Assembly: GCA_916610825.1 (NCBI GenBank) | Contig: OU744452.1 | Span: forward strand, 11,078,110-11,142,109 | Source of the DNA: Haliclystus octoradiatus | Lineage: Eukaryota; Cnidaria; Staurozoa; Stauromedusae; Haliclystidae | Direction of reading: 5' to 3' | Length of the DNA stretch: 64,000 nt | Shown here: positions 6,001 through 44,500 of the stretch, piece after piece | Layout of the letters: the number at the start of each line of letters is the position of its first letter | Numbering within the stretch: position 1 is the first letter of the stretch | Position numbers and translations under genes: made by a program | Notes under the pieces: model-generated | What the model was told of the DNA's origin: nothing | Seen by the model: only the letters and a program-made list of their open reading frames with translations | Database searches by the model: none

Positions 6001-9000
6001 CTATTTTAAAGTATTTTGTCTGCAATGGGTGTATTACTGTACATACAAAAGTTTTGATTTTGAATTCAAGAGATATCCACAAATATGCAGCTAATGGAAT
6101 TCATAATTTAGATCAAACAATATAAAGTTTTATAATGGAATTTGTAAACTTTCCAAATGACATACAGTATTGATAATTTTTTTCGGTCATGTATGAACTG
6201 TACCTCTGCAAAAAAATTTGTTGAGTTCATGAACAGATCATGAACTCTCATGAACTGTTGATGAACACCTTATAAACAAATAAACAACTCATGCACAGTT
6301 CGTGAACACAAAATGACCCAATTTTCAAAGAATTTTTCATGAACTCTTCTTGAATTGCTTCCACAATGTAGCAAGCATGGCTATTTTTGTTTACACACTT
6401 AAGAATGTCTACTATTTCTCTAATTTCGGTTATTTTTAAGTGTGTATGATTTTCATCATCTTTTCCTTGTTTTGTCTGTGTTCGTTAGGAGTTGGTTGAG
6501 GAAATCCAACAAACTGTTTTATCAAAACATGAATATTGTGTCATAGTTAATCCTGTTGATGTAAATGGTAATCTACAACTTGGAAAAAGATTACTCAAAA
6601 CGGGATTGGATGCATTCTTTCTTCATCCAGGTACAACCTTACTTTTGTATAATAGCCAGCGATATCATCTACGTAATCTGGCCGCAATTAACCAATTGTT
6701 AAACAGTTTCTATAGGCAGCAGCTTGAATTTGCACAAGTAGATGTGTATGGAGAAAGCGAGGCCTTGGTGAATGATTCTCATTTTCAAGATTTCTCGTGA
6801 ACTTGCCAAGTGCTCTATGAAGCTTTGGCTTTTATAGAAACCAGATAGAAACTGTTTTCCACAATGCTTTGTACAGGACCAAAATTAGGTATAATTATAA
6901 AATACAAAAATCACAAACTTAAGGCTGAACTAATAAAAACATGCCTTTACCAAAGTGAACTATTAGTCTTGTTGATGAACAGACATTGTGTTTCCATGGC
7001 ATCATGTCATGAAGGCTTGCATATTTGTGTCTAGTGAGCTTGCTGAGAAAACTTGATATGCTTTCTTAGATTGGTGCTTTAGGCAACCACAATTGCAGAA
7101 ACTCATAAACAGTTCATCCAAGGAAAGATTGCAATAACGAGCCATGTAACATTAAATTATGAACTTCAACAGTGTTTCACTTATTCAATGGATATGCAGT
7201 TTATCCCATATTCCCATGTATTGTATTTTATGATGAAAGTATGTTATAATTTGTATGATTAAATGTTATAAGGTGAATCTTTTGAGCATGGCATTGAAAA
7301 AGCATACATATTAAATGACGATGAGGCTTTGGTTCTGAGAGCAAGATACATATATACTGAATCAATTGGAAAAGGTAATTTCTTAATTTATTACTTACTG
7401 TGATGGAAACCAACCAAATGAAAAACTGGTGTTGGATAGTTAACCTTTTGTTGCTAATAATGCTATAATTGAATGTTTATTAATATTAAATTTTTATATT
7501 TATCAGTGTCTAAATTCTTGTTCAACAATGTCACACAATACAGAATTGATTTTTTCAAATGATTTATTGATTTTTTCAAATGATTTACCTATTTTATATG
7601 GCAAGAGAACAAGTCAATTCAAATTCAAAATCTATAGCCTTATTCAATTAATTATGAGGCAGATTACTTGCCTGAGTTACTTGATTTTGCAGACCTGGTT
7701 ATTCTAGTAGCCAGGTCAGTTCGTTGCCTTGTAAACACAAACATTTCAGTTGCAGACATCTTTTGTTCTCTAAATCGTTCGATTTCAACGCGCATTGTTA
7801 CAAGGGAATTACATTATTGATCTCGTGTAGGCGAGTGGTTCACCTACCCGGGGGTGGCTTGCTCTCTTTGTGAACAAGGCCTTAATTATTAATTTATTGA
7901 TGAACAATGCTAACTAAGGTATCATGATATAGCATTATTTTGAGCACTGTTTAACAGTACACTAAAAAAACAAAGATGAAAATAAGATGGCATCATTCAA
8001 TGAAACTGTTGAATGGTCTTGCGTCTGGAATGAAGGGTGGCCCTAGTGACAGTGCCAGATTTAAGTGTCCCCTGAAGAATCAAATGCATGATCATTAACA
8101 CATTTAACTACATTTATATTCACTTACATATGTATTATTCTCTCCGCCAATAATTCCTCTTCTGCTATAACATATTATAACCTGTTATTATATTTTGCTT
8201 ATTATAAAATAAAGTAATGTGGACGGTGTCGCCCTACCGAAGGCACCCGTACCACTCCTCTATTTCTAGAGGAGTGGCTCTTTTTGCTAAAAGCAATGAT
8301 GTTAAACGCTCCTTAGATCTCAGCCGCGACACTGCAGATCAATTTCAACAGATTTCATGGCAGATAGACCTTGATTGTGAATGCGCAACGATGCGCCGCA
8401 GCTACTCGCAATGCAATTCCTTCTGAACCATTCCATCTGCCATCCTTAGATGGTACTCATTTGATGTTTCAGATAAAGTCAATGCTGAGTTGACCTGAGG
8501 GGGATTTGAACCACAGTTGATCAGATATGATACGATCTGAAATTCGGTTGCTCTGCCAACTGATGAGTTAATCACCCCAAACTGCTTATTATGTACATGT
8601 ACAGACCCGTGAAAAGAGCTCAAAGCTTATCGGGTACTGAATAAATGATGATGTTAAATAATGATGATTAATTATACCATGCTTTCATTTGATCATACTT
8701 TATAGAATCAATTGAAAGAGGTCCAGGTGATAAATGGATGATATTTGGTCCTTTGGAATATGTGCCACCTGTTGAAGTGAAGGTTGAATGTTTAAGGTTG
8801 GTAGTTGTACATTATATGAAGCATCGTACACAAACACCTGAAAGGGACACAAAAACTAGATCATATTGTGTTGAAACTAGGTTTTTTGTTGAAAACCTTT
8901 CCGAAGGTTTTTCACATAAAATTGTCCTTGCCACAGCTTTAAGTTGCAGAGAATGATGGGAGAAAATCAATTTCTTCAGAATTTTGACCGGCCTTTTTGG

Positions 9001-15000: not shown

Positions 15001-18000
15001 ATTCAACAAAATCCTATGAATCTTGTCGAAAATAAAAAGTCATTTGGCCACCCCCAAGATGTTGGTGAAAAAACGCCAACAACCGTAGAATAGAATTCTA
15101 TGAATGTTGGCGTAATTAAAAAGTCATTTGGCCACCCCCAAGATGTTGGTGAATAAACGCCAACAACCGTAGAATTGAATCCTATGAATGTTGGCGTAAT
15201 TAAAAAGTCATTTGGCCACCCCCAAGATGTTGGTGAAAAACGCCAACAACCGTAGAATTGAATCCTATGAATGTTGGCGTAATTAAAAAGTCATTTGGCC
15301 ACCCCCAAGATGTTGGTGAAAAAACGCCAACAACCGTAGAATTGAATCCTATGAATGTTGTAAAAAATAAAAAGTCATTTGGCCACCCCCAAGATGTTGG
15401 TGAAAAAACGCCAACAACCGTAGAATTGAATCCTATGAATGTTGGCGAAATTAAAAAGTCATTTGGCCGAGGCTTTATGATTGACTATTTCGCAATCTGA
15501 GTTGATTTCAGAAGCCGGCAGTTGATTTTGAAGAAAATGATTATGATTATATAGATAAATGTGATTTCTTTTTAAAACAAACAACTTTTAGGATCACTCC
15601 GAAACTGACTACTGGTAATTCATAAAAAAGTAATCAGTGATATAACACTTTGCCGTAACCATTATTTTCCATTGAACTGTTTCTTATTCTAATAGAAAGA
15701 TTATTATTCATATTGATTGAAAATGATTGAATGATTCATATTATTTCCTCTTTTCTGTTATGTTCCTCACACTCACTTTAAATTGAGTAGTAATTGAAAC
15801 GATATTGCATAACAGAAGTCGCCCATACATACCTTTATATCTATATCAGATCTGAAGTCAGGTTGCTCTGCCATCTGAGTTAATTCTCCCTATTTTTACT
15901 GAATTATTTTTTTATTCTATGATCTTCATAAAGGTTGAAACAACTGACCATGCAAGACTGAGAATTAAATATGCTGTCAATAATAAATTTGTTGTAAGTA
16001 AATTAGCTATTTGTTTGTGTAGTATACAATTTTCTGCCATGCCTTTTATTTGCCAGAGCATCGTTTTGATCCAACACTTCCTTTCTTTCATGTTCAGGTT
16101 GATAAGCAATCTGAAGAATCAGTGCAGAAATTGTTTTCTGTTCCTGATTTTATTGGTTTCACTTGTAATTGTATTGGTGAGTATTCCCCTGTGAAAAACA
16201 GTTCATGGACATTTCAAGAGCATTAAATGGTCGCAAATTTTCATGAATTGTTTTTGAACTGTTCATTAACTGTTCATGAACTTTCCGTGAGGGTTCAGGA
16301 ACTGTTCATGAACTCCTGTTTTTTTGCAGGGGTTTTTCTGATGATAGTTTAAATCTTTTTTAATTTGTTTTATCACAGTCTATTCATGAACTGTTTACAT
16401 CAAATCCATGTTTTTTATATTCTTTATTTTAGCAAGTCGTATCAGGGGAAGAGTAGCAAGGACAGCTTTTGATGAGTTCCATCGTTATTCAACAAGAATT
16501 GTCAAAGAAGCTGTTTTCGGTCTAGATAAAGATGAAAAACCTAAATCCACATTGATGTTTCCAGAAAATAATATGGTAATTATGATTTGATCTGATTTAA
16601 TTGTTGTCATATAAAAAGTATACAAGAAAACAAAAAGAAACTAGTTTATAGCATAACTTTCAAAACTCAATTAAAAACATTTTTATTTTGATGGATACGA
16701 CATATTCAAAAATAAATAAAATGAAACTGGTAATAAATACTGTTGTGAAATTGCTGATAAATACATTTCTGACATATTTTATTTTATGGTATAGCTCATT
16801 ACCAACATTGATGTTCAAACAATAGAACCAGTTGATATTCAAATGAGGGATAGTCTCCTCAAATCTGTTCAGTTGGCCATTGAAATATCTACACAGTAAG
16901 TAATTAAGCCTTTTGAAAGTTAAAACGTAATACGTAGGCAGTTTGGGCTAGCGATCTTCAACTAGTTTGAAGTAATGCCAAATACATACAGAATTGATCT
17001 CTTAAATATCCCATACATGATGTTTACACTCGGCAACACAAATTACTGAGTTGATGTACTGACCACAAACTGCTCATTAACACCTTATTTATTTTATAAG
17101 CAGTTCATTTGATGTTCATGAACGTTAAATGTCCTATGTTTCCACAAACTTTTTCTTGAACTGTTCATGAATTTTTCAAGAGGTGTTTCCAATGTAATAT
17201 GTTATGATTTTCTGCATTGAAGGTCTATTGAGAGAGCCGCAACACAAGAAGCTGCAAGAGAAGATCAAACTGCCAAAGGATCGCTGGAAAGAAGCAAATT
17301 GAACAATGAAATGGTGGGTTGTTCAAACTTCAATTATTTAATATTTTGTAATGGGTATGAGAATTGCCATATTTGGTACCATATTGGATGTTATTTATGT
17401 TTTCCTATATCAAATAGCACTGCCATATTGAGATAGTCAATTGGATGGTCTAGGAAGAATTACTTAATACAATGAAACCTCACTCTTTATATCACTGTCC
17501 TAGTGCAGCCAGACATTGTGATAATAAACGGGTCTTGATAGAAACTCAGCTCTGAAAAATGAGTGATATTAACCAGGTGGTGTTATTAGCAATAGTTCTA
17601 TTAACATGTTACACTGTACATTGTCAATCAAAGCAGCCTAACTACTGTAAAATCTACATGTTAAAATTGATCTACAGAGATGCCCTTCCGCTGGTTACGA
17701 AGGCCACACTTGCAGGTTTCCTGTTTATAAATTTAAAAATTGATTTTGCAGACAAGAAGTGTGTTCATTTAAAGATAGGTAGTATTGTAATGTGATTTTG
17801 TATTCCACTAGGCTGCAGAAAAATCAAAGTGTCACTTGTATGAGCTTAGAGCAATCACTGCTGCGGTCGAATCCTCTGGTCAAGCAAAAGCTGAAGCTGC
17901 AGTATGTTACAATAATTAATGATTAATTTGAAACATTGTGCTCTTGATAGGTGTCTTGTAAGGTATATGCTGTGAATTCGTTATAAAAGGATTTCTAAAA

Positions 18001-38500: not shown

Positions 38501-41500
38501 GGGTCCATTTAAAGTTCATGATCTGCTCATTATATTAAATTTCAAGCAAACAATTATAATAGTGTAATGTTGGACTAATGAAAATTTTTGACAGTTACCT
38601 TTGAAAAGCCAATAGGTGTGTCCTTCTTTTGTACAATTTGACTTTAGAAATGACAAGATATTCTGAGCAACATCCTTTACAACCTAAACACATCATATAA
38701 AAATATATTGAATTATTTCTACATCCTTATTTAGTCTTGAAGTGGCTCTCATGTGTAATTAACATCACCAGCGAAAAAGTTACTCAAGTTAAATTGAAGA
38801 ATTACCACACAATTGCCATGTTTGTATTCATATTTACTACACAAGGAATGTTGGAAGACAGAAGTGAAGTGTTGAAAGCACAAGCCAGAAGTGAGTACTT
38901 TCAAGACTTCCCGAGTGTAGTAGATACAAACATTCGCAAGTGTGTGGTTACCGTAATCTTCTAATTCAAAATCCAATTAAATTCAAGGTTTTAACTTACT
39001 AAAATGTCCTTGAACTAAATTAAAACTTTAAAATGTTAGTCTTTCTTAAATAGAGATAGCTTTGTTGATTTTATTTCGTCAATAATACATTGCAGTTTCC
39101 TATTTTTCTTCAGCTTTTAAACTCTGATAAAATTTTATTGTCACTTTTTTCGACGGGAATTTTTGAAAAAAGTTTACCCTAGAATTTCCAAACACATGGA
39201 TCAACCAATCAAATTGCAGGATTATGTATGATTATGACATGCTATTTAAAAAGACAGTTACAGAACATTTCATGTTGGATTCATGAACAGTTAATACTTT
39301 ATGAATTGTAAATACCTGTACAGTAAAGATTGTGAATAGTTCATGGACACCTTTTGATCTGTTCATAGAGCTTGAAAAAATTTAAGGTTCATGAACTCAT
39401 GAACACTTTTTCACAGGGTTTTATAATATTATTTGCATTATTATATGCATGTAATAAGAACCAAACCTTATTACGAATGATAATAGCTACGCTATGGATG
39501 ACAGAGAAATATCAAGATCTGTTTACCAAATAATTTTCAAACTTAACCAGAACTTTTGAAAATTGCTATACGCCAATAATAAAATAACTCTGCAATAACC
39601 CAGCAGTTTTGTTTTTCGGCTCATGGGGGAAAGCGGCTTTATGCCGGATAGTCACACGAATTACCCTATTCGTAACCAAACAACGGCTATCAAACTTGTA
39701 TAACAGTTCATAATCACTACTGACGCAGCCTAATTACTACTGACGCAGCCTTCACCATGATGGACCAAGTTTATAATCATAAATCTAACTTACCTTTGGA
39801 TTAAACTTCCCACCTTCCAAAGTAGGCAGTTCTTCTGTTTTCAAAACCTCGTATTTCTAAAGGATAAAATCAAGGTATAACATTTCATTTTAGGCCACTG
39901 AAAATTCCTTTCCCTTGTTTGCCTGTAATTTTTTTATATTTCATAAAGTTTTTCAAATACGTATCAATCAATTAATCTACCTACAATATTTGAAGCTAAG
40001 AATTTATAATTGCAGAAAAAATGAGTCGAAATCCAGGACTCAAATGTATTACAGATACTAACCGAAAGTATTGCTGTATTGTATGAAATATATGATGCAG
40101 TGCATATGGATTGATGTTAATTGTATTCTTAAACATTCTTTTTATTATGGCACAAACAATGGATCAAACATCTGAATAGTAAATCGAATGTTGATATTCC
40201 ATGAAAAACAAAACAAAAAGGATGAATAGATCTCATTACTTGGTACAGTAGTTCATGAAAACAGGCCATTTCATGTCCATGACGAAAAAAGAACTCATTT
40301 AACCATGGCTTAGCCGCTCAAGGGAAGCATGTAATGGAAATTAAAATAAGATGATGGTTTACCTGAATGATGCCTTGCATATGATAAAACATTAAAACCT
40401 CTGGAACGTTGCACATTAAATTATCAAGCCAATAATCCAACCCTGTCAATACATTGATTGGTTTATCAAATTCCCTGCAATTAACCAAAAAACAAAATTG
40501 TAAGCTACTGAAATTTAATTCTCAATAAATTCTTCAGGCACTATTATTCTTTTTATTGGACAAAGGTGATAATACCTACCATATACAATGCCTGCTAGCT
40601 AAACAACGGCAGGTTAAAGATTAATAAATATTTGTATTATAAAATCGTATAAACACCTAAAATGTCCACATAATTGTAAATAAACAATTGAATTATATTA
40701 ACGGAAAGATGAGTTCCTTGGCAGGAACGAAACACGTGTCAGACCAGCCGCTTTATCAATTGATTAATCAATCACGTTGTTATTCAACCGAGACTGCGCA
40801 TGCGAAATGCACCGAGGTTGTCACCATCTCTACATTTCGTTAGCGGGACTTCAGGTGCGATGCCTGACGAGCTATGACATCAGAAAGGTCTCTGATGAGT
40901 TCCTTGGCAGGAATGAAACACGTGTCAGACCAGCCGCTTTATCAATTGATTAATCAATCATGTTGTTATTCAACCGGGACTGCGCATGCGATATGCACCG
41001 AGGTTGTCACCATCTCTACATTTCGTTAGCGGGACTTCAGGCGCGATGCATGACGAGCTACGACATAAGAAAGGTCTCTGATGAGTTCCTTGGCAGGAAC
41101 GAAACACGTGTCAGATCAGCCGCTTTATCAATTAATTATATTAACATTGTTGATAATGATATCTATCTTGAAATAGTAGAATTCAAATCATTCTTCTTCT
41201 TTGCATTATCTCGTTTGGTCACAGTGGCTACTTCGTTACAAAACAGACAAATTTTTGCAAAATAGCAGAAATAAGAATTGGGACAATCAAAATCATAGCG
41301 TTCAAAAGAATAAAAAGTGGTTGGAAAGTAGAAAAAATGTTAGTGATCTGCGATTGAAAGAGAGGTTTATAGGAGAAAATTGACCTGATCAATCAAATGT
41401 TTTTAAATTAAATTTGTTTATAAATTGTAAAAATATATTTTTATTTTACAAAAGGGCTACTGCACGATAGTCGATAGCCTTGTGTTTAGGCTATCTAGCA

Positions 41501-44500
41501 CCAACACTTGTGATGTTGGGAGACACTTGAGAGCTGAGACATATTCCTCCCCTCACTGACATTTGCTTTCTCATGTCTCCCGACATCCCGTGTGTCAGTA
41601 TCAGAAACCCCAAACACGGCTGCCGTGCAGTAACCCTTTAATACAAATAATAGAATCTTCAAATTTGATAAAATTTCAAACTGGATAGAAACTCACCTTA
41701 ATCTTACACTGACTGCAGGATGATGAGCACCACCAAATATGGGCACATTAGAACCCACTAACATTCTAATATCTTCAAATGTCCAAATAATATCTCTTTG
41801 AAATGAAGACTGTAAAAACAAATATTGATAATGCGGTGACCTCATCAGTGTGTCACACATTCTATTGTAATATTGTCAGGTGTTATTTAGCTATTAAATT
41901 GTATGTCATGGTTTGTAATCACTCTCTAGTCTGTAGCCTTCGAGTTGAGCAGTCACCCACTCATCGTATTAATTATATTATATTTTAATAAATTTTATTA
42001 TGTTCAAACTAGGGTCAGGCAAAAGCTTGATATTTCCTCTTTATTTTTGTCAATATACTTCAAATGTACTTCTATCCAGCAGGAGTGTGATTTATTTACA
42101 CATTGATATGGCATATTTTCTCAGTCATATTTCATTTAATGGTAATACTAATGTATAATAACATCTACAAACCTCAGTTCCACTTGATAGGTCTGGAAAT
42201 TTTGATAAAAATGAATCTCTTGAAGGAATACTTGACAATATTTGTCTATCAGTGAAGTTCTCTGCATGTGTCTGGCTTACGTCTTCTGAAGCTACGTACG
42301 GGATACTATATGAAAACAAACCCAGAAAGATAAAAGAAGAAAGACAAAAGCAAACTTGAAATAATTCAACAAACAGAACCATCAAGAATAGCAACTGCTT
42401 TAAATACATTGAATCACATGATTATCAGAGCTGACATCTCAGTATGTTGGGTTGCACAGTTCATCTTCATGAATGTAAATTTAATTGAGTTCAGAACCTT
42501 TTTGTAAACTGATCAAGAATAATTAAGTTTGTGAACCTGTAGAGATGTTATCCTTTTTTATTATCGAAAGCTGACATTCTTGAAAATATAGCACATACCG
42601 GTACATGTCTGGTAGAATTGCATATTAACTATCACTGACATTTTTCAGCTACTTACATATATAGTACATAATGGTAACCTATAGTCACCAAGTACATGTT
42701 TATAGAGCTTTTTCAAGTCAGACATGTTGGTGTTGCATAACAGTACATCCTGGGGTCATAATCTTTTTGAAACACACCAAGAGGGTTATTAATCTTTGCA
42801 CTAAATAATTCTCAATGGACTCATCAGGAGCTTGCGAAAAAGCTTTATTGAGGGACATGCGTAAACACATTTATAGGCAAACACAAATACCATATGTGCA
42901 CCGATGAGCAAATGAATCCCGGCTCCTTGCACAAAGTTTAAACTCTGCCACTGAGCCACCATTGTGTTCATATAGTGCACATTGTGTTCAAATAAACATT
43001 GCGCGGTAACATCCGTAGCATGAAACAGTCTAATGTATATTTTTCAAATCACACAGGTTTTTATTTATTCATTAATAGATAAGGCTATCTACCTTTTAGG
43101 GATCATTTTGGATAGAAATGCTTTCAGTGCTAATTGCTCTTCTGTTTTCTGTTCCTTAAATACATCATATTCCTGAAAAAGCACAGAAACAATAACAATA
43201 ACAAGGGCTTTTCACCTACGCAACGCTATTCGCATCTACGATAGTTTATACATTTAAATTTACTGTTTATATTAGTTCATAAATATGCCTCGATCAACGA
43301 GAAATAGTCAAGATGCCAGTTTAAATTCCCCTCCCACCCAACCCCTTCTCAAGTTGTTATTATTGATATTATTTTGCTTGCTTTTCCTTATTTTGTTTAT
43401 TTGTTTCTTTTTGCACTATAATTTATTTTCAATAATTTTCCATTGGTTATCAGTGTGACTGGTGTTAGGGTGGTGACAGGATCGCTAGCAGGTGTAACGC
43501 AAATCCAAATTTATTCCTCCCATCATCCAAGCACCAAATGCCAAAATGCACCAATATGCTGTATTTTAAGGCGCTCGAAAAATTAATTAATTTAAAAACA
43601 AGGTTTTTGCGTTTTAAACAAAAGTTTTTAAATTTATGATATAACTTTTGCGCGTTTCGTTCAAATTTTGTGAGCCTAGGTTTGACAGAACGAAAATGGC
43701 ATCCATAAAATCATGTGACTGGCATCTGTCCAATTGGAGCTAAGAGCAGCACAATAAAGAGTGATCCAACTCTTGTAAATAGATGGGTCTGACCTGAATT
43801 GTTCATGAAAACCCTATGAAGAGTTCAGTCTATTCATTTTTGGTGTGAAGATTATCGCTACTGACAGTTTGTAAATGATATATAGCTCTATTATCAAATA
43901 TCAATTACAGTGTCGTCGGCTTAGTGCAATTTAGATAATGAAATTCTTGCTTTCTGAACTATTTTCTGGTCTAAAGTTACCTTAGGTAAGTTTCTGAGAT
44001 CACAATAAACATCTTTCAGCCATTGAAAGTTTGACATCTGAAAAGAAGGAGACACATTGATCTTGTTAAATACCTTAGTATTCAAGTCATTATCAACATA
44101 TTTTGATAAATATAACAAAGAGCTCTAGCGAGAAAAACAGGACTGGAATGATCTAGAACTAATCAGTATCTGATTTAGAGTCAATCCCAAGCATATTGAT
44201 AAATTTTAGATCATTTACAGTCCCGTTATATACCATTTGAAAAAGGTCACCTTTGGGTAAAAGATTTGACCAATATGCTACGCACTCTATATTGTATATT
44301 GATAGTGCTGTAACAGGCAAGCAACAAAAAGCATTGTATGTTCTATTTGGTGTTATTTAGTTATTTATGCACAGACAGTTAAATGTATAGAGATTGTTCA
44401 ATGGGAGTACTCAGTCACATCTGTTAATATATAGAGAATAAAATAATTATTTACAAACAGACAATACTATTAATATAGAGATAGATAATAACCTGAAATG

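Follow-up and report, generated by a model that had tools for sequence, protein, structure and literature searches.

A likely hammerhead retrozyme in an EDRF1 intron of the stalked jellyfish Haliclystus octoradiatus, and the nearly constant 3′ junction of its dispersed copies

A short tandem array in an EDRF1 intron of the stalked jellyfish Haliclystus octoradiatus (Staurozoa) likely belongs to a dispersed family of non-autonomous retrozymes, which would be propagated by the five-step copying scheme set out below. The chief interest lies in the insertion junctions: genomic copies end at a nearly fixed 3′ position and begin at variable 5′ positions, a pattern suggestive of target-primed reverse transcription with an internal start on the RNA, and the template for such a start would probably be a circle. 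Judged by its nucleotide sequence, the family is a new, staurozoan one within a known kind, the metazoan non-LTR retrozymes. No published report of retrozymes in Staurozoa was found in the main texts of the literature searched.

The stretch of DNA analysed, hereafter the window, is 64 kb long and belongs to an assembly of 33 contigs and 262 Mb. Tandem-repeat analysis identified a 186-nt repeat of 2.3 copies at window positions 40708–41138, and a 59-nt segment occurs in three in-register copies spaced exactly 186 nt apart. A preliminary description of this DNA had counted three units in exact 186-base tandem, each with a hammerhead ribozyme; the 186-nt spacing stands, but the array consists of two full units and a 59-nt piece. 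Two of the cores are complete, as that description stated, and the first is missing C3 and U4 along with the 5′ side of stem I. The two full units differ at 8 positions, and their GC contents of 47.8 and 47.3% compare with 33.9% for the chromosome. The perfect 12-bp duplication said to bound the array is indeed present on both flanks, and the placement in an EDRF1 intron was borne out by the flanking exons and splice sites, with the element in antisense orientation. The parts of the locus, in window coordinates, are as follows.

40321–40474, minus strand: frame containing the EDRF1 exon that follows the intron (EDRF1_N 289–329); the exon starts at 40474, and 40321 is the bound of the frame
40475–41696, minus strand: EDRF1 intron (~1.2 kb) containing the insertion; splice sites read directly
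40691–40702, no strand: target-site duplication, left copy, AATTATATTAAC
40703–40707, plus strand: GGAAA, separating the duplication from the first recognisable unit base
40708–40893, plus strand: unit 1, 186 nt; hammerhead 5′-truncated, without C3, U4 and the 5′ strand of stem I
40887–40931, plus strand: complete type I hammerhead, predicted cut 40926/40927, stem II closing pair G-U (descriptor scan, direct reading)
40894–41079, plus strand: unit 2, 186 nt, with 8 differences from unit 1
40927–41112, plus strand: predicted self-cut 186-nt RNA, which would be circularised (placed by the two predicted cut sites)
41073–41117, plus strand: complete type I hammerhead, predicted cut 41112/41113, one G-U in stem I (Rfam match, descriptor scan)
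41080–41133, plus strand: third unit, partial (unit 1–54); the 3′ end of the insertion is unit 54
41134–41145, no strand: target-site duplication, right copy, AATTATATTAAC
41697–41809, minus strand: EDRF1 exon upstream of the intron, matching EDRF1_N 255–290

Because the element is antisense to EDRF1, the EDRF1 pre-mRNA would not carry the ribozyme, and expression from that transcript is ruled out as being of the wrong strand. The two predicted cuts would release a product of 186 nt, as had been foreseen. Elsewhere in the window, palindromic 11-mers related to AGTTCATGAAC form short arrays at 6227, 16240, 36111 and 47507, and an 84-bp tandem repeat (5.5 copies, 94% matches) occupies 15010–15468.

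A descriptor for the type I hammerhead, requiring the CUGANGA core and GAAA with minimum lengths of 4 bp for stem II, 2 bp for stem III and 4 bp for stem I, was matched twice on the two strands of the window, both times in the array (40892–40926 and 41078–41112). Markov simulations (first order, 100 sequences of 64 kb) gave no match to the same descriptor, and a chance hammerhead is thereby ruled out. The Rfam type I model (RF00163) matches 41074–41116 with 23.8 bits and an E value of 0.0038, for 901 bases searched. A covariance score below threshold had been named in advance as counting against the element, and this score does fall below the gathering score of 34, which is reached nowhere in the window. 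Likewise, a genome scan with RF00163 gave no match at E ≤0.001 among the best 73 of 24130 candidates, and 14 control genomes were also silent; the best scores among 20 further loci (18 retrozyme, 2 Penelope-like element, PLE) were 31.4 and 30.9, with none above 34. The gathering score is the Rfam cut-off, and it is absent from the published definition of metazoan retrozymes.

Covariation lends the hammerhead modest support. The stem differences between the two good cores had been described as compensated; instead, they are changes from G-C to G-U wobbles, at the closing pair of stem II in one core and within stem I in its partner. Elsewhere in the family, stem II shows a few double changes. 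Pairing holds in 95.9% of the stem cells of 43 distinct hammerheads, versus 95.4% in shuffles. Double changes affect two stem II pairs and 4 cells, and the support is modest because two such pairs were reached by 123 of 500 shuffles (4 cells by 2 of 500); sliding the hammerhead register by +1 gave 3 pairs and 5 cells with double changes. In a conservation count that kept 62 of 82 hammerhead rows, the core columns are nearly invariant, as are many neighbouring columns, and the conservation of the core does not clearly exceed that of the remaining hammerhead region. The predicted 186-nt circle has 57–60% of its bases paired and no extra structure relative to shuffles (z of −0.15, 1.4 and 0.19 for three units tested). 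Self-cleavage and RNA circles are predictions from the 186-nt sequence.

Further copies with flanking duplications, which the preliminary description had led us to expect, are plentiful. A genome search with the unit gave at least 72 matches on nine chromosomes (best 40 of 556 candidates), and the core pattern has 172 matches versus 2 for a reversed control pattern. The unit-search set favours long copies, while the loci taken by core pattern (30 plus 20, in chromosome order, among the matches listed) required an intact core. For the duplication test, 17 loci repeating a site were dropped along with L078 and L079, which are of another kind, leaving 80 sites; a target-site duplication score of at least 11 was found at 30 of these, as against 1 of 473 control pairings that joined flanks of different sites. 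The dispersed copies and their target-site duplications support the retrozyme interpretation.

A deletion of 3 nt, along with base differences at a few positions, sets apart two subfamilies, A and B. Unit divergence is 5.7% within arrays and 7.2% between arrays, and in the L009 array the last unit belongs to subfamily B and the preceding two hammerheads to subfamily A, for which template switching and recombination are possible readings. Since divergence within arrays almost equals that between them, and since L009 mixes subfamilies, origin of each array from a single circle is unsupported.

Several loci are unusual. At L047 (C7:7650325–7652808), a 2.5-kb array holds 17 matched units, most of them internally deleted (~144 nt) and with stem I pairing lost, which from its sequence looks like satellite-like growth. 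L015 and L065 (C1, 29.479 and 29.508 Mb) have a common duplication and 5′ end, and one has lost a lap; they are probably a duplicated insertion that subsequently contracted. L023 and L043 belong to different subfamilies, share the duplication AAATAGGTA and resemble each other in their flanks, as though one spot had been struck in two copies of another repeat. Finally, L079 (4330–4660, minus strand; C4, ~20.69 Mb) has hammerhead-like cores in each arm of an imperfect palindrome that spans a few hundred bp and is unrelated to the 186-nt unit.

For end mapping, L047 and L065 were also set aside, the former as satellite-like and the latter as the same insertion as L015, leaving 78 copies; the rows of L050 and L080, which were split in the automatic alignment, were set by hand. 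The aligned 3′ end lies at unit position 45–63 in 74 of the 78, the exceptions being L012 (65), L048 (37), L049 (36) and L085 (104). A strict set of 39 sites, with duplication scores of at least 9 near the aligned ends, has duplications of 9–15 bp, and when the duplication is taken as the boundary, the 3′ end falls at unit 47–55 in 37 of 39 (median 51). The ribozyme cut, at unit 33/34, lies upstream of this fixed end. Unit 33 is where a linear self-cut RNA would terminate, and because 74 of 78 copies end past the cut, at 45–63, such a monomer is rejected as the usual template; exceptions are L048 and L049, old copies of 83 and 81% identity with 3′ ends within 4 nt of the cut. The main texts of the literature searched yielded no published description of a fixed retrozyme 3′ junction.

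The 5′ ends, by contrast, are variable, with copy lengths from 49 to 683 nt when the 2.5-kb L047 is left out. They fall at unit 32–56, near one full lap or a multiple, in 17 of the 45 copies of at least 181 nt (p 4e-5, for an interval chosen post hoc), and four of the 78 start at unit 34–35, the cut itself (p 0.04 for 33–35, again chosen post hoc). The duplications overlap the RNA end by a mean of 2.18 nt, compared with 0.40 for random flank words. Ten of 39 start with AAT (background ~4%), a count confounded by the element’s own CAAT, and 10 of 39 end with ATT (background 0.043), a count free of that confounding. One copy of the 79 examined, L093, has at its head an inverted piece of unit 34–54 with the same 3′ end.

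The copying scheme would run as follows. A transcript spanning two hammerheads would cut itself to a 186-nt RNA (step a), which a host RNA ligase would circularise, by analogy with published retrozymes (step b). An endonuclease, whose existence is presumed, would cut AT-rich DNA, often at ATT, a preference that is statistical (step c). The cut DNA, often matching the RNA by a few nucleotides, would then prime reverse transcription at a fixed internal point ~15–20 nt 3′ of the ribozyme cut; here the fixed end is observed and the priming proposed (step d). Finally, the enzyme would run round for anything from a partial lap to several laps, giving the 5′-variable partial tandems and 9–15-bp duplications that are observed (step e). 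The enzyme would most likely come from a PLE, one of which, in this genome, has a hammerhead-like motif and fixed ends 3′ of that motif.

Two alternatives to a circular intermediate bear on this scheme. Spread of a tandem satellite as DNA, without any RNA stage and with the hammerheads as remnants, is highly improbable: the L047 array of 17 matched units did grow to 2.5 kb with an internally deleted unit, but the dispersed insertions with target-site duplications and the junction pattern of constant 3′ and variable 5′ ends lead us to reject it. It is also conceivable, although unlikely, that the same family is primed at the same point on an uncut or partly cut linear multimer, in which case the hammerhead would be unneeded for insertion. 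In vitro, PLE insertion is independent of hammerhead activity; hammerhead mutants of a lizard PLE leave insertion unchanged, and unprocessed RNA is the dominant substrate, according to the available text of that study (PMC11167929). Units within an array are barely more alike than units of different arrays, L009 mixes subfamilies, and the four copies that start at unit 34–35 are what run-off at the 5′ end of a cut would give. However, the 17 of 45 starts that pile up just past a full lap, even in a post hoc interval, are more simply explained by a circle, and the published animal retrozymes are described as accumulating as circles (PMC7229834, in the portion available). The template was probably circular.

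As to the helper, PLEs are put forward as a strong candidate for animal retrozymes, without a test, in the accessible text of Cervera and de la Pena (2020, PMC7229834). In the Haliclystus genome a GIY-YIG domain was found in 16 places (46 of 46 candidates scored), one of them at the end of a 792-aa frame; the domain also occurs in an upstream partial PLE copy. The same region lies on both sides of this frame in the PLE copy at C2:28184939, forming pseudo-LTRs in a partial tandem. The pseudo-LTR carries CTGAAGATGCAATTAAGCTATTGCGAAACGTT, which in L100 and L101 can be read by eye as a minimal hammerhead with an ACGU stem III; this putative ribozyme has no Rfam match at E ≤0.5 and is absent from the minimum-energy fold. 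The first 247 aa of the frame have no match in Pfam or PDB, and the frame is not among the best 150 of 7639 candidates of an RVT_1 search, many of which are long open frames. A search with the PLE region gave at least 44 matches (best 40 of 478 candidates), whose 3′ ends fall at query 284–294 in 16 and 312–321 in 26, with 2 running on and none at the predicted cut. These clusters lie ~50 and 75–81 nt past the predicted cut, compared with ~20 nt for the retrozyme.

Ten neighbouring pairs of PLE matches stand in opposite orientation, minus then plus, with 3′ ends outward, and wherever both ends fall in clusters, one is at the short site and one at the long (8 of 8; chance ~0.002), as if the two DNA strands primed at different PLE sites. 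Separately, the motif CTTTATC is found near the 3′ ends of both retrozyme subfamily A and PLE site 1 and is absent in subfamily B; its sharing may be chance.

The best-described comparison is Poseidon, a PLE of the Anolis lizard (Frangieh 2024, PMC11167929). As its available text describes, reverse transcription starts internally, 3′ of the hammerhead cut; AT-rich DNA is cut, with ATT preferred on each strand; genomic copies end at the internal start; and the start site lacks homology to the DNA that is cut. The retrozyme resembles it in having a hammerhead, a proposed internal start 3′ of the cut, ATT-rich targets and partial tandems. The jellyfish PLE shares with the lizard element copies that end 3′ of a hammerhead cut, here a putative one, and the retrozyme footprint is of the same kind. 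On the other hand, Poseidon encodes its own enzyme, its start lies ~85–92 nt past the cut (calculated from the paper) rather than ~20 nt, and the short target match of the retrozyme has no counterpart at the Poseidon start, as far as that text goes.

It is tempting to suggest that animal retrozymes parasitise PLEs, the PLE complex cutting ATT on both strands, initiating reverse transcription in a circular RNA at a constant position immediately 3′ of the hammerhead, and then running round the circle; we offer this tentatively, as a proposal a little short of probable. PLE mobilisation of the Haliclystus retrozyme itself is plausible but unproven. The case is circumstantial, since many other long reverse transcriptase frames exist in this genome. 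Mobilisation of the same retrozyme by a LINE-type enzyme instead seems rather improbable, yet it would accord with the abundance of long open frames among the best 150 of 7639 candidates, with the 15-bp duplications of Nematostella repeats that have been likened to those of LINEs (PMC4918200, available text) and with PLE distances past the cut unlike that of the retrozyme. Against a LINE helper, the internal start near the hammerhead and the ATT preference resemble the published PLE, an indirect argument in that the comparison covers PLE ends alone.

Among known systems, the closest are the metazoan non-LTR retrozymes, described in the available text of PMC7229834 as type I hammerheads in tandem units of ~170–400 nt, with hosts including corals, anemones and jellyfish. 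The Haliclystus family is alike in its type I hammerheads in short tandem units (186 nt, within the 150–450 bp taken here as the range for the class), duplications longer than 4 bp (12 bp here), multiple dispersed copies, GC below 50% and PLEs in the same genome. It differs in that most of its copies run from part of a lap to a few laps, and in that its predicted circle shows no excess of structure over shuffles, whereas the account lists a highly self-paired circle; the fixed 3′ junction seen here was not found in the available part of that account. Plant LTR retrozymes are likewise non-autonomous, with tandem hammerheads and circular RNA (predicted here), but as presented in the accessible text of PMC4918200 they have type III hammerheads, 4-bp duplications, larger circles, and LTRs with a primer-binding site and polypurine tract.

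The identity of the helper enzyme and the role of the circle as template are unsettled in the published work available, and the chief value of the junction evidence is that it opens the identity of that enzyme to testing. With at least 172 core matches, clean duplications, a chromosome-level genome and a PLE with a 792-aa open frame alongside, Haliclystus offers a concrete test system, for which a start point at unit 50–54 and a nick preference for ATT are testable predictions. The same junction measurement can be applied to other retrozyme genomes. If animal retrozymes do parasitise PLEs, the constant 3′ junction would be the genomic footprint of the start of reverse transcription, readable in any retrozyme-bearing genome.
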